A stretch of DNA of 11,399 bases from Desulfobulbaceae bacterium (GTDB lineage Bacteria > Desulfobacterota > Desulfobulbia > Desulfobulbales > Desulfocapsaceae). Numbering within the stretch: the first letter of the stretch is position 1; every line of letters begins with the position of its first letter. The position numbers and the translations under genes were made by a program. The notes under the pieces are model-generated. The model worked only from the letters and a program-made list of their open reading frames with translations, was not told the DNA's origin and made no database searches. Shown here one piece after another: positions 2,643-10,118 of the stretch. The DNA lies in assembly GCA_030599175.1 (NCBI GenBank), contig JAUVON010000056.1:1-11399 (forward strand), written 5' to 3'.

Positions 2643-4154
2643 ATGGAACCCTTTGTTTTTACTCTTCCTCCTGGAAAGAACCTGAAGAAATTACGTCGTC
2701 TTCTGGATGGTGATACGCTGTATAATCTTGTTGTTAAAAAAGGTGAACTGGTTGATTGTTCTATTTTGGACACCTTTGATAACGAAATAAGGCTTTCAAA
2801 GCGAATTCTATTGCGAACAGGGCAGGATCTGCTACTGATAAATCTTGCAGATGGTCGGATTGTTGAACAACAGCCGGGATCGACATGGTCCTTCCTGTCT
2901 GAACTGGAAGACGGGCCCGTGGCCGGATCATTGAAAGGTGTTTCCAGGATTCGGGCGTTCATGGTTGTGTCGAGGTTAAAAATACGGCGTGATATGGGAT
3001 TGATCCTGGATGATGAGGGAAAGACCCGGGCGCGGTTGCACACCGTTTCTTTTTTTCGAAAAAAACGATCATTGCAGCTTGGGATTACACAATCTCTTCG
3101 TGGTTATGAGCGTGCCCATACAGATCTGAAAAGTTGGCTGATGAAAATGGGTGCAGACCCGCGTAGAGATGTTGGAGAAATGTACAGCCGGTTAGGGATA
3201 AAGTCGAAAAATTATTTTGCAAAACCTGATATTTTTCTTACTTCTGAGGATCCGATTAAAGAGAGTGCTACAACAATTATTCGTACCTATATAAACGTTG
3301 CAAGGAAAAATGAAACCGGTGTGATAGCTGATTACGATACGGAATTTCTGCATGACTACCGTGTCAGCTTTCGAAAGGTCAGATCCATCCTGAGTCTTTT
3401 TAAGGGAGTCTATGGCGCTGAACAGACAGCACAGTTGAAGCAGGAGTTTGCTGATCTGATGAAGCAGACAAATCGCCTCCGTGACCTGGATGTCTATCTG
3501 CTCGGCCGGGATGACTATTTTCAGATGGTTCCAGAGAGTAGTCATGGGGGACTTGGAATTCTGTTCGATGCTATTTCGACAGAGAGAGTGGCTGAGCATA
3601 AAAAAGTCTGTAAGATGATAAAGAGAAAATCCTATCGTCGGCAAATTGACGAATGGGTTGATCTGTATGCTGGTGGCAACCTTACATCCGGTCCCAATGC
3701 GATGAAGAGTTCAAATCAGTATATTGCCGGGCTGATTCTTAATCGATATCGCAAGGTGTGCAGGATTGCCCGTGGTATAGATGAAACAACTGCCGACCAG
3801 GTTGTACATGAACTGCGTATTCACTGTAAAAAGCTGCGTTATCTGATGGAGTTTTCTTTGCCGCTTTTCTCGAAAAAGAAGGTTAAAGTCCTGATCAGGG
3901 CATTGAAGATTCTGCAGGATAATCTGGGCAGGTTTAATGACTATTCCGTGCAGCAGGTATCTCTTGGGGTGTTCATGTCGGGACAGTCCATGTCAGGCAA
4001 AAAAAGTTTGAAGGTTGCTGAATCTATAGGTGCTCTCACTGCCATGCTCTACCAGTTACAATACAGAGAACGCAATCTTGTAATGGAAAATTTTGCTCAC
4101 TTTGACAGTGAGAAGATCCACGCTTCTTTTATTGACTTGTTTCGGCTTGAATAA
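2643..4154 (+). CDS. CHAD-domain protein with degenerate CYTH-like N-terminus (predicted polyphosphate binding)
   Basis: A 503-residue cytoplasmic protein. The C-terminal two thirds (about 205-500) is a CHAD domain, a helical bundle with conserved basic residues that binds inorganic polyphosphate. Both half-repeats show the signature: HDYRVSFRKVR at 237-247 followed by NRLRDLDVYL, and HELRIHCKKLR at 389-399 followed by a QDNLGRFND-like helix. The N-terminal part (about 25-160) resembles a CYTH/triphosphate tunnel fold (ILDTFDNEIRLSKRILLR recalls the family's DT-x-L-x-LR strand), but the N-terminal ExExK motif needed for triphosphate hydrolysis is absent. It is therefore probably a binding module, not an enzyme. 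The start has only a weak upstream GAG (TTGAGTTGTT before the ATG). A ParA-type ATPase gene follows after 38 bases in the same direction, pointing to a joint role in placing polyphosphate bodies (inference). CHAD assignment is strong; the CYTH relation is tentative. Confidence 0.88.
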   Translation: MEPFVFTLPPGKNLKKLRRLLDGDTLYNLVVKKGELVDCSILDTFDNEIRLSKRILLRTGQDLLLINLADGRIVEQQPGSTWSFLSELEDGPVAGSLKGVSRIRAFMVVSRLKIRRDMGLILDDEGKTRARLHTVSFFRKKRSLQLGITQSLRGYERAHTDLKSWLMKMGADPRRDVGEMYSRLGIKSKNYFAKPDIFLTSEDPIKESATTIIRTYINVARKNETGVIADYDTEFLHDYRVSFRKVRSILSLFKGVYGAEQTAQLKQEFADLMKQTNRLRDLDVYLLGRDDYFQMVPESSHGGLGILFDAISTERVAEHKKVCKMIKRKSYRRQIDEWVDLYAGGNLTSGPNAMKSSNQYIAGLILNRYRKVCRIARGIDETTADQVVHELRIHCKKLRYLMEFSLPLFSKKKVKVLIRALKILQDNLGRFNDYSVQQVSLGVFMSGQSMSGKKSLKVAESIGALTAMLYQLQYRERNLVMENFAHFDSEKIHASFIDLFRLE

Positions 4155-4179
4155 CTTTTTTACGATGCCATTATAATTT

Positions 4180-4185
4180 GAGGGA
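4180..4185 (+). promoter_or_regulatory. Ribosome binding site that decides the ParA start
   Basis: GAGGGA stands 7 bases before the ATG at 4193. The frame extends upstream to a TTG at 4178, but that codon overlaps this site and would add only five residues (MRDAK) ahead of the canonical MKIVACYSNKGG start. Confidence 0.7.
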
Positions 4186-4192
4186 TGCCAAA

Positions 4193-4939
4193 ATGAAAAT
4201 TGTTGCCTGTTACAGTAATAAGGGGGGGGTCGGGAAAACTGCTACCTCTGTTAACCTGGCTTATGCCTGTGCCATGAGTGGTAAACAGACACTGCTCTGT
4301 GATATGGATCCCCAGGGTGCATCGGGCTTTTATTTTCGGGTAAAACCTTCCCGTAAATTAAAAAAACAGGCCTTTTTCAAGGATGTGGATTGTTTTACAG
4401 GAGCTATACGGGCAAGCGATTATGATAACCTCGATCTTTTGCCTGCCAATATGAGCTATCGTGATTTTGATATTTTCCTGTCAAGGATGAAAAACAGGCG
4501 GTCACGTCTTAAAAAGGCTTTAAAGGCTGTGGGTAATGAGTACGATGTGATTATTCTCGATTGTCCGCCAAATATTTCGCTTCTTTCAGAGAATGTTTTC
4601 AGGGTGGCAGATAAAATCGTGGTACCGGTAATCCCAACTACTTTATCGGAACGTACACTGGAGCAGCTTTACGACTTTTTCAACGATAAGAAATATCAGA
4701 AAAAGAAGCTGCTGCCTTTTATTTCCATGATGCAGAAGAGAAAAAATCTGCACAAGGAGACGAGGTTGAGATTACAGAAGAAATATAAAAATTTTCTTGA
4801 TAATTCGATCCCGTTTTCAACTGATATTGAGAAAATGGGTGTGAATCGGGCACCGGTGTTGGCGTATGCCAGATCGAGTCCTGCCGCAAAGGCGTATGAA
4901 AAACTCTGGAATGCAATTCAAGATAAGGTCAAAATTTAG
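4193..4939 (+). CDS. Small ParA/MinD-superfamily ATPase (cargo-positioning type)
   Basis: A 248-residue soluble ATPase of the ParA (AAA_31/CbiA) group. All core motifs are visible: deviant Walker A KGGVGKT at 10-16 with signature lysine K10, Walker A' LLCDMDPQG with D37 and D39, and Walker B VIILDCPP ending at 126. The VPVIPTTLSERTLEQL segment is typical of Soj/ParA proteins. No N-terminal HTH is present, so it is the short, non-plasmid-autoregulating type. Such ATPases dimerise on ATP, bind nucleoid DNA non-specifically and move a partner-bound cargo. There is no parB gene or parS-like site nearby. The partner in this operon is the CHAD protein, so the cargo may be polyphosphate granules (inference). 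The region around residues 175-200 is rich in Lys/Arg and could contribute to DNA contact. The Walker A coding sequence contains a run of eight G. A chromosomal Soj role is less likely without parB. Confidence 0.88.
   Translation: MKIVACYSNKGGVGKTATSVNLAYACAMSGKQTLLCDMDPQGASGFYFRVKPSRKLKKQAFFKDVDCFTGAIRASDYDNLDLLPANMSYRDFDIFLSRMKNRRSRLKKALKAVGNEYDVIILDCPPNISLLSENVFRVADKIVVPVIPTTLSERTLEQLYDFFNDKKYQKKKLLPFISMMQKRKNLHKETRLRLQKKYKNFLDNSIPFSTDIEKMGVNRAPVLAYARSSPAAKAYEKLWNAIQDKVKI
4222..4229 (+). repeat. G8 homopolymer within the ParA Walker A codons
   Basis: The codons for Lys-Gly-Gly-Val of the P-loop are written AAG GGG GGG GTC, giving eight consecutive G. A one-base slip here would frameshift the gene at codon 12 or so. 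Confidence 0.85.
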
Positions 4940-4945
4940 TCTGAG

Positions 4946-4963
4946 CTTTCAGAGAACTGAAAG
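4946..4963. terminator. Small hairpin between convergent ParA and kinase genes
   Basis: CTTTCAG (4946-4952), loop AGAA and CTGAAAG (4957-4963) form a perfect 7-base stem just after the ParA stop and over the last codons of the convergent kinase gene. It has no T-tract on either strand, so it is at best a weak or factor-assisted bidirectional terminator. Confidence 0.3.
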
Positions 4964-9128: not shown

Positions 9129-10118
9129 ATGTATATTTTAAGGGTATTATTGACTCTTTTTATATCACTTGCAGGTTTTATGGTATTGCCAATTATCCAG
9201 TCAGATGCCGTTGCTTCCGGTTCTCCTCTAGTCGATAGATTGTTACATATATATGAGCCATCCGGGGTTCTTTATCTTTCAAACGGTGACGTCCTGATAA
9301 TTGAGGATGATGGCAGAAATCCTCTCCATCTTATTTCTCTTGCGGATCATTCAGGTGTTGATTTTACCGGTCCAAATGTCACTATGAAACTGTCGACACC
9401 AGTGGATGATCTGGAAGGTATCACACTGGGCAGAGATGAGACTGTTTTTCTGATTACTTCGTTTTCCCCTGACAGGAAAAAAAAGAGAAAAAAGAAAAGA
9501 CAACGGTTGATTCAATTTCAGATTAAAGATGGTCGGGTTGTTCATGAACTTCATTTCGATAATTTTCTGCCCTACCTGATTCAGCAGTTAAATAAGGAAA
9601 AATATATCGATGCCGGAAGCGCTGATACACTCAATATTGAAGGAATCACTTTTGATGCCGGGAAGAAACGCCTTTTAATAGGACTCCGATCTCCTTTGGT
9701 TAAAGGCAGAGCTATTATCGTTGTTCTTGAAAATCCTTATGAAATTTTTTCCGGCACGACTCCGCCCATTTTTACAGGCCGGAATATTATGATGGATCTT
9801 GGCGGAGAGGGGATACGGGGGATTACCTATAATTACAACCTGGGTGTCTATCTGATCACCAACGAGGTGAAAAACAAAAAGGGGAAATTGCGACCGGGGT
9901 TGTGGGTGTGGGACGGAAAACCTGAAAATAGACCAGCCAGGGCCTCACTTCCCAAAATGAAGGGGGTAAAAAATATTGAAGGGATTACCCCGATTACTGT
10001 TGGCGCCAGGCATTTCCTTCTTCTTGTATGTGATGATGGGGAAAAGAAAAAAGAAAAGGGTGGACATTACATTTTGATGGATACCGGGTTTTTATCAAAG
10101 AAATCCGTTTCAAGGTAA
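9129..10118 (+). CDS. Exported DUF3616-like beta-propeller protein
   Basis: A 329-residue protein with a signal peptide ([24 protein letters not shown], likely cleavage after DAVA near residue 29), so it is periplasmic or secreted. The mature part resembles DUF3616 (PF12275), a propeller-type domain related in outline to esterase-like phytase domains. The repeated motifs are [19 protein letters not shown] (93-111), [33 protein letters not shown] (168-200), [20 protein letters not shown] (227-246) and KNIEGITPI (281-289). Blades thus begin with a conserved EGIT-like element. No catalytic residues are known for the family. A very basic loop, [11 protein letters not shown], lies at 116-126. No clear Shine-Dalgarno precedes the ATG, but no better start exists that keeps the signal peptide. 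It is 45 bases after the regulator gene and 97 before the YyaL gene. Family assignment is moderate; export is likely. Confidence 0.78.
9477..9500 (+). repeat. Purine-rich A-tract stretch in the DUF3616-like gene
   Basis: A run of eight A (9477-9484) followed by A6 and A4 tracts broken by single G encodes the polybasic loop of the exported protein. Such runs are slippage-prone. Confidence 0.6.

Follow-up and report, generated by a model that had tools for sequence, protein, structure and literature searches.

A conserved pair of CHAD and ParA genes as a candidate two-gene system for the positioning of polyphosphate granules

Introduction

In McdAB systems, the ATPase carries a signature lysine and its partner is encoded by a neighbouring gene; the locus described here has the lysine and a candidate partner gene next to it. 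How bacteria place their polyphosphate (polyP) granules is an open question. In the table of a 2025 review (PMC13052382) AlgP is the sole polyP example, the positioning proteins of Caulobacter are treated as not identified, and the authors ask whether energy goes into the positioning of polyP granules. With regard to the CHAD domain, PMC6537752 names 3E0S as the CHAD protein of C. tepidum and reports that changing H253, R256, R260, R296, R418, and Y419 of this protein weakened polyP binding. A ppk-parA-CHAD gene order in Acidithiobacillus appeared in print in 2019 (PMC6416229) and 2024 (PMC10892726). The CHAD-ParA gene pair analysed here offers a two-gene, ATPase-based candidate for granule placement and, occurring in widely separated bacteria, a testable candidate for the placing of phosphate stores in some cells.

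The gene pair and its genomic surroundings

The window, i.e., the whole stretch of 11,399 nt that was analysed, is contig 195 of a 430-contig, 2.9-Mb assembly of a Desulfobulbaceae bacterium with a completeness of 86.8%. The pair and its elements are located in the window as follows.

2643..4154, + strand: gene of a CHAD-domain protein of 503 aa (PF05235 profile match, AlphaFold2 model)
2643..3266, + strand: N-terminal domain of the CHAD protein, mostly beta, approximately residues 1-208 (from the secondary structure of the model; CYTH-like by position only)
3276..3959, + strand: helical CHAD domain, residues 212-439, with polyP-contact residues H237, R240, R244, R280, R399, and Y400
4155..4192, + strand: intergenic gap with the ribosome-binding sequence GAGGG; TTG at 4178 is an alternative ParA start
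4193..4939, + strand: gene of a ParA-type ATPase of 248 aa, without HTH and without adjoining ParB
4220..4240, + strand: Walker A motif KGGVGKT, ParA residues 10-16, with the signature lysine K10
4946..4963, + strand: weak terminator-like hairpin 3' of the ParA gene; such sites occur at chance level in this region

An earlier note on this DNA had described a CHAD gene followed after 38 bases by a ParA gene. This arrangement was recovered, with both domains above the Pfam cut-off (PF05235 at residues 212-439 of the CHAD protein, E 2e-52, 178.9 bits against a cut-off of 25.6; PF13614 in the ParA protein, E 7e-40). The genes share one strand and the distance of 38 nt is counted from the CHAD stop codon to ATG 4193. 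The ParA ORF opens at TTG 4178, and ATG 4193, which lies behind the GAGGG sequence, is the likely start. Downstream of the ParA gene a hybrid histidine kinase gene is situated in convergent orientation. A single CHAD gene was detected in the draft assembly. Elsewhere in the window, positions 9129-10118 encode a DUF3616 protein that also has a phytase-like match below cut-off, possibly an additional link to phosphate, and positions 657-2132 encode a TIGR01777-family oxidoreductase with approximately 188 additional N-terminal residues.

The CHAD protein

The best solved relatives of the CHAD part are PDB 3e0s, 6qv7, and 6qva (profile E 1e-91). The six C. tepidum residues named above correspond, in the order given, to the six listed for the window, as counted along the profile alignment with the residue names of PMC6537752. 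These positions are kept in 78 to 79 of 79 CHAD proteins. Considering the conserved residues and the solved relative, the CHAD domain of the window is expected to bind polyP, which agrees with the role assigned to it in the earlier note.

The AlphaFold2 model (59 sequences) reached a pLDDT of 92.9 and a pTM of 0.89 and contains a mostly beta N-terminal domain of approximately 200 residues, separate from the helical CHAD part; the earlier note does not mention this N-terminal domain. A CYTH relic was guessed at this position from the architecture. A modified CYTH domain remains our suspicion, without support from sequence comparison: profile comparison with hhalign gave a probability of 0.4%, no CYTH protein occurred among the PDB sequence matches, and Pfam returned CHAD only, and no CYTH, for the CHAD proteins of the window, L053, L062, and L084.

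The ParA ATPase

Walker A (KGGVGKT, K10), Walker A' (D37, D39), and Walker B (D123) are all intact in this short protein of 248 aa. In the 79 rows of the ParA alignment, positions 10-15, 37, 39-41, and 122-126 of these motifs are kept throughout, and T16 in 78 rows. Walker A starts at residue 10, which leaves no space for an HTH in front of it, and searches with Pfam and NCBIfam found no regulatory domain. Among 25 listed of 26 matching NCBIfam families, no named ParA family (ParA_partition, BcsQ, MinD, and others) exceeded its curated cut-off, the best reaching 87.7 bits against 180.

Profile searches of nine window ORFs found no ParB. A separate Soj-ParB pair, its ParB identified by eye, is located on another contig of the same genome, and this chromosomal Soj shares 30% identity with the ParA of the window. 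Furthermore, the ParA subfamily is separated from the Soj-like rows with 100% SH-aLRT in the tree of 79 rows. Identity with the chromosomal Soj was therefore rejected, and the description of a short ParA with intact Walker motifs, no HTH, and no parB nearby stands in all its parts. A phage-defence system was rejected as well: in a PADLOC run on four proteins, one CHAD protein gave nothing and three ParA proteins matched only over residues 3-39 or 4-39.

Conservation of the CHAD-ParA adjacency

Searching with an alignment built from four ParA proteins yielded 247 relatives, of which the best 80 were kept as named loci. CHAD neighbours were called with a profile built from four CHAD proteins; Pfam, applied to L053, L062, and L084, gave CHAD each time. 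With ParA as the only query, 78 of these best 80 of 247 had a CHAD gene immediately upstream and in the same orientation. The genes overlap by exactly 4 nt in 40 of these 78, and in 75 of the 78 they overlap or are separated by no more than 10 nt. Wider gaps (95, 100, and 176 nt) occur in the remaining three, L045-L047, near relatives of the window. L065 and L068 are the two exceptions, with a PPK1 gene directly upstream of ParA (Pfam on L068), so that the upstream slot is occupied by CHAD or PPK1 in all 80 loci. Contig ends truncate some of the loci (CHAD in L050, L064, and L120), and in L111 CHAD is split into two ORFs.

The pair occurs in Desulfobulbaceae, Desulfocapsaceae, Gammaproteobacteria (e.g., Neiella), Roseobacteraceae, Paracoccaceae, Alcaligenaceae, and Pontiella (Kiritimatiellota), and according to record titles also in isolates of Ruegeria, Salipiger, and Desulforhopalus. 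The presence of a two-gene ATPase candidate in isolates makes the question of granule placement directly testable. A conserved adjacency of the two genes, which the earlier note had proposed to look for in Desulfobacterota and other genomes, is seen at 78 of 80 loci and extends far beyond the close relatives; chance adjacency was rejected on the same count. The distances of CHAD and ParA proteins are correlated (r 0.81, 79 pairs; L064 and L111, with CHAD ORFs below 440 aa, were left out), which indicates shared inheritance only.

If this ParA were an ordinary partition protein, of a chromosome or a plasmid, and lay beside CHAD by coincidence, it would correspond to the annotation in print for Acidithiobacillus. 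Against this reading stand the lack of an adjoining ParB, the genome's own Soj-ParB pair, and the adjacency conserved in 78 of 80 loci, and we regard it as extremely improbable.

The first ParA tree comprised 79 rows, among them 32 of the 80 named loci, and required five changes of CHAD linkage, or four if CHAD and PPK1 are taken together. For a reduced tree of 55 rows, three long branches (L005, the G036 ParA without CHAD, L011, and L027), nine of 12 Soj-like rows, and 12 near-copies were dropped. On these 55 rows a single origin of the CHAD/PPK1-linked ParA was not rejected (AU p 0.277). The linked proteins do not form one clade in any free tree, with three changes in the careful tree and 0% of 200 bootstrap trees. 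CHAD-linked ParA proteins fall into one main clade and a small number of deep lineages.

Occurrence in samples of different relationship

In 99 genomes of the phylum (E 1e-20 or better), ParA proteins of at least 41% identity were found in G000, G052, G088, and G036, with all other matches listed at 36% or below. CHAD was present in nine of the 99. Both genes are adjacent in G052 and G088, G014 contains CHAD without this ParA, and G036 contains this ParA with no CHAD anywhere in the genome. In the latter, the 41%-identical ParA adjoins a 206-aa protein with coiled coil plus PAS (L032:7572-9007).

The 58 genomes of the order of the window contain 14 CHAD genes above cut-off in 13 genomes (one more, in G551, lies below) and 16 ParA matches in 15 genomes. 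Twelve adjacent pairs account for 12 of the 14 CHAD and 12 of the 16 ParA genes. Outside the pairing, G014 has CHAD only, G573 has both genes apart, and G546, G582, and G540 have ParA without CHAD; G546 and G573 retain the argJ-ParA order without CHAD. CHAD is present in 12 of 15 ParA-positive versus one of 43 ParA-negative genomes of the order (p 6e-9, uncorrected for relatedness).

The Pseudomonadota sample comprised 398 genomes including its centre G127, which was itself picked for carrying the pair, and a ParA threshold of E 1e-45 was applied. The ParA subfamily occurs in 68 and CHAD in 202 of these genomes, with adjacent pairs in at least seven, G127 included. The neighbours of 30 of the 69 ParA matches were inspected directly, and seven had CHAD next to them while 23 did not; the other ParA matches were compared with the CHAD matches listed. 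The pairs seen are a small share of the CHAD genes. Genome-wide, and uncorrected for relatedness, CHAD accompanies ParA in 57 of 68 ParA-positive versus 145 of 330 ParA-negative genomes, and still in 50 of 61 versus 145 of 330 when the seven pair genomes are removed. Also uncorrected for relatedness, PPK1 is rarer with ParA (29 of 68 versus 275 of 330 without) and PPK2 slightly commoner (59 of 68 versus 240 of 330), whereas for either kinase there is no real difference (65 of 68 versus 300 of 330). In four ParA-positive genomes (G183:C19, G207:C11, G211:C81, and G319:C74) an unlinked CHAD gene lies divergent from PPK2, with approximately 0.5-0.65 kb between the matched domains.

Neighbouring genes of polyP and phosphate metabolism

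Among the best 80 loci, 41 have a single-domain CYTH gene with the E(I/V)ERKF motif next after ParA (criterion -60 to 150 nt). In four further loci (L069, L073, L077, and L104) the CYTH gene after ParA has an ORF that opens further upstream. Pfam placed CYTH above cut-off in the downstream genes of L059 and L063 and below it in L112. A NUDIX gene is located downstream on the same strand in nine of the 80 loci. For 10 of the 12 pairs of the window's order, the third gene is SixA-like (Pfam on three genes); the window and L170 are the exceptions. Because the search seed was a NUDIX-SixA fusion, its matches are NUDIX genes at some loci and SixA genes at other loci, and Pfam settled the identity of the few genes named.

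PPK1 lies inside the fetched DNA of at least nine of the 80 loci, seven times divergent from CHAD and twice upstream of ParA, and shortened loci could hide others. Genome-wide kinase searches on part of the 80 loci found PPK1 in 30 of 40 genomes and PPK2 in 25 of 25, including that of the window. In the draft assemblies of the window's genome and its five closest relatives PPK1 was not found. The frequent CYTH, NUDIX, SixA, and PPK1 neighbours bear out the polyP context assumed for the pair, and a polyP function of this ParA is well supported.

The same neighbours can be read differently. ParA might act as an ATP-dependent switch of polyP metabolism: by recruiting or releasing CHAD, CYTH, NUDIX, SixA, or PPK1 at polyP, it would control how polyP is made or degraded and would not move granules. 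The prevalence of polyP and phosphate enzymes among the neighbours and the two ParA genes directly after PPK1 are consistent with such a switch. Two points count against a switch, which we consider unlikely: the Pfam and NCBIfam searches found no regulatory domain, and known ParA/MinD proteins of such size with an intact signature lysine mostly position cargo.

GAK genes and other ParA neighbourhoods

GAK-type genes (TIGR04356 ATP-grasp, TIGR04355 HprK-related kinase B, TIGR04354 amphi-Trp, and TIGR04358 XXXCH as family set) together with PhoU-APH genes were located beside ParA in the following regions.

L177:1094-9841 and L063:5454-14626: GAK-type and PhoU-APH genes beside ParA, with CHAD
L171:3298-11176 and L172:4964-12608: GAK-type and PhoU-APH genes beside ParA, without CHAD

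In L063 (Neiella), the CHAD-ParA-CYTH genes are followed by a GAK ATP-grasp gene (E 1e-129), an HprK-related kinase B gene (4e-104), and an amphi-Trp gene (4e-16; all NCBIfam); its PhoU-APH gene matches both parent families below cut-off only. In L177, the genes after CHAD-ParA, on one strand, encode relatives of the L063 proteins PhoU-APH, ATP-grasp, and HprK-B, and beyond them come NUDIX-SixA, a further phosphatase-like gene, and a metallophosphatase relative. At L135/L176, a CHAD-ParA pair is followed immediately by amphi-Trp. Two loci of the window's order are situated in GAK clusters of genomes without CHAD: the same-subfamily ParA lies between two amphi-Trp genes in L172 and between XXXCH and amphi-Trp in L171. 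Within the named loci, the fetched DNA of four out of 80 contains GAK-type genes (L063, L064, L067, and L108). A literature search on the GAK system, amphi-Trp, and HprK-related kinase, with subscription journals mostly outside its coverage, found no paper.

Two side groups were also observed. The ParA genes of a sister group (L139, L144, L146, L147, and L148) are oriented divergently to an RnfH-like gene (Pfam applied to L146 alone), the product of which carries a Lys/Ala-rich repeat tail like that of H1 or AlgP, with truA near several of them; this group could represent a separate ParA cargo system. In L178 ParA comes directly after alaS and in L179 one gene lies between, with recA near (names by eye from the sequence).

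These neighbourhoods raise the alternative that the ParA subfamily serves some other shared cargo or assembly, e.g., one built by GAK proteins, with CHAD as one of several adaptors. In favour of it, same-subfamily ParA genes occur in GAK clusters without CHAD (L172, L171), GAK genes follow on the same strand after CHAD-ParA in L177 and after the CYTH gene in L063, and other members lie near alaS or by the RnfH-like genes whose products have the Lys/Ala-rich tail. Since all 80 named loci link the window's own ParA clade to CHAD or PPK1, we rate a shared cargo of this kind as distinctly improbable. It is tempting to speculate, although we lean slightly against it, that an unnamed ParA clade is dedicated to polyP as a whole, with CHAD as adaptor, granule positioning by ATP hydrolysis, and a GAK system tied to polyP-body biology via the contiguous PhoU-APH, ATP-grasp, and HprK-B genes.

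Proposed function

We consider it reasonably probable that CHAD-ParA represents a two-gene system for the spacing and partition of polyP granules. The CHAD protein would coat the granule via its polyP-binding domain, as its conserved residues and solved relative suggest. ParA, judged by its family, would dimerise on ATP and bind the nucleoid non-specifically. The CHAD protein, probably by its N-terminal beta domain or tail, would stimulate ATP hydrolysis at the granules, and the resulting moving ParA gradient would spread granules along the nucleoid and share them at division, like McdA with carboxysomes. Positioning of granules by ParA appears to be the best reading, and CHAD, as the candidate partner encoded next door in 78 of 80 loci, would be its cargo-binding partner. 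In favour of this reading are the CHAD or PPK1 gene upstream of ParA, the pairing within the window's order, the polyP and phosphate genes nearby, the conserved contact residues, the distance of the ParA subfamily from the Soj-like rows, and the co-occurrence of CHAD with ParA beyond the adjacent pairs. For a fused CHAD-ParA chain, obtained by reading across the in-frame stop that occurs naturally in L067, the model had a pLDDT of 88.4 and a pTM of 0.74, and no contacts or interface score were returned.

The proposal that CHAD is the adaptor of ParA, made in the earlier note, is partly supported, by the conserved adjacency, polyP-contact residues, and polyP surroundings and by the lack of an adjoining ParB. 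CHAD is not the sole possible partner, given the same-subfamily ParA genes without adjoining CHAD in G546, G573, G582, and G540 and in 23 of 30 cases of the Pseudomonadota. The granule-positioning reading itself is weakened by the commonness of such genes and by G036 with no CHAD at all. It is further weakened by the window's genome and its five closest relatives, drafts without PPK1, though the window's has PPK2. The Pseudomonadota also speak against it, as PPK1 is rarer with ParA there, either kinase is no different, and few pairs were seen.

Comparison with known systems

A literature search, with subscription journals mostly outside its coverage, found no paper proposing polyP positioning by a ParA. 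Common to McdA-McdB (PMC13052382, PMC6328274) and the present pair is a ParA-type ATPase with a cargo-bound partner, a role that the CHAD protein would fill here. In contrast to McdA-McdB, this partner is a polyP-binding CHAD protein and not McdB, and the cargo would be polyP. PMC6328274 also describes McdA-overproducing cells with unusually many granules, perhaps polyphosphate bodies, which is a possible lead to a connection of ParA and polyP.

AlgP of P. aeruginosa (PMC9239181, PMC13052382) acts in the spacing of polyP granules via nucleoid binding and resembles the pair in its proposed role. Unlike the ATPase pair, it is a single histone H1-like DNA-binding protein, the ATP dependence of which is listed as unknown in PMC13052382. 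CtCHAD of Chlorobium tepidum (PMC6537752; PDB 3e0s, 6qv7, 6qva) has the same polyP-contact residues as the window CHAD, but the accessible text of PMC6537752 mentions no ParA partner.

Closest in gene content is the Acidithiobacillus folD-ppk-parA-CHAD cluster (PMC10892726, PMC6416229), in which ParA lies beside CHAD and PPK1 as in the loci described here. In the accessible text of both papers this ParA is read as a plasmid or chromosome partition protein, with no wider survey. New in comparison are the breadth and near-constancy of the CHAD-ParA pair, its distinct ParA clade, and the links to the uncharacterised GAK genes.
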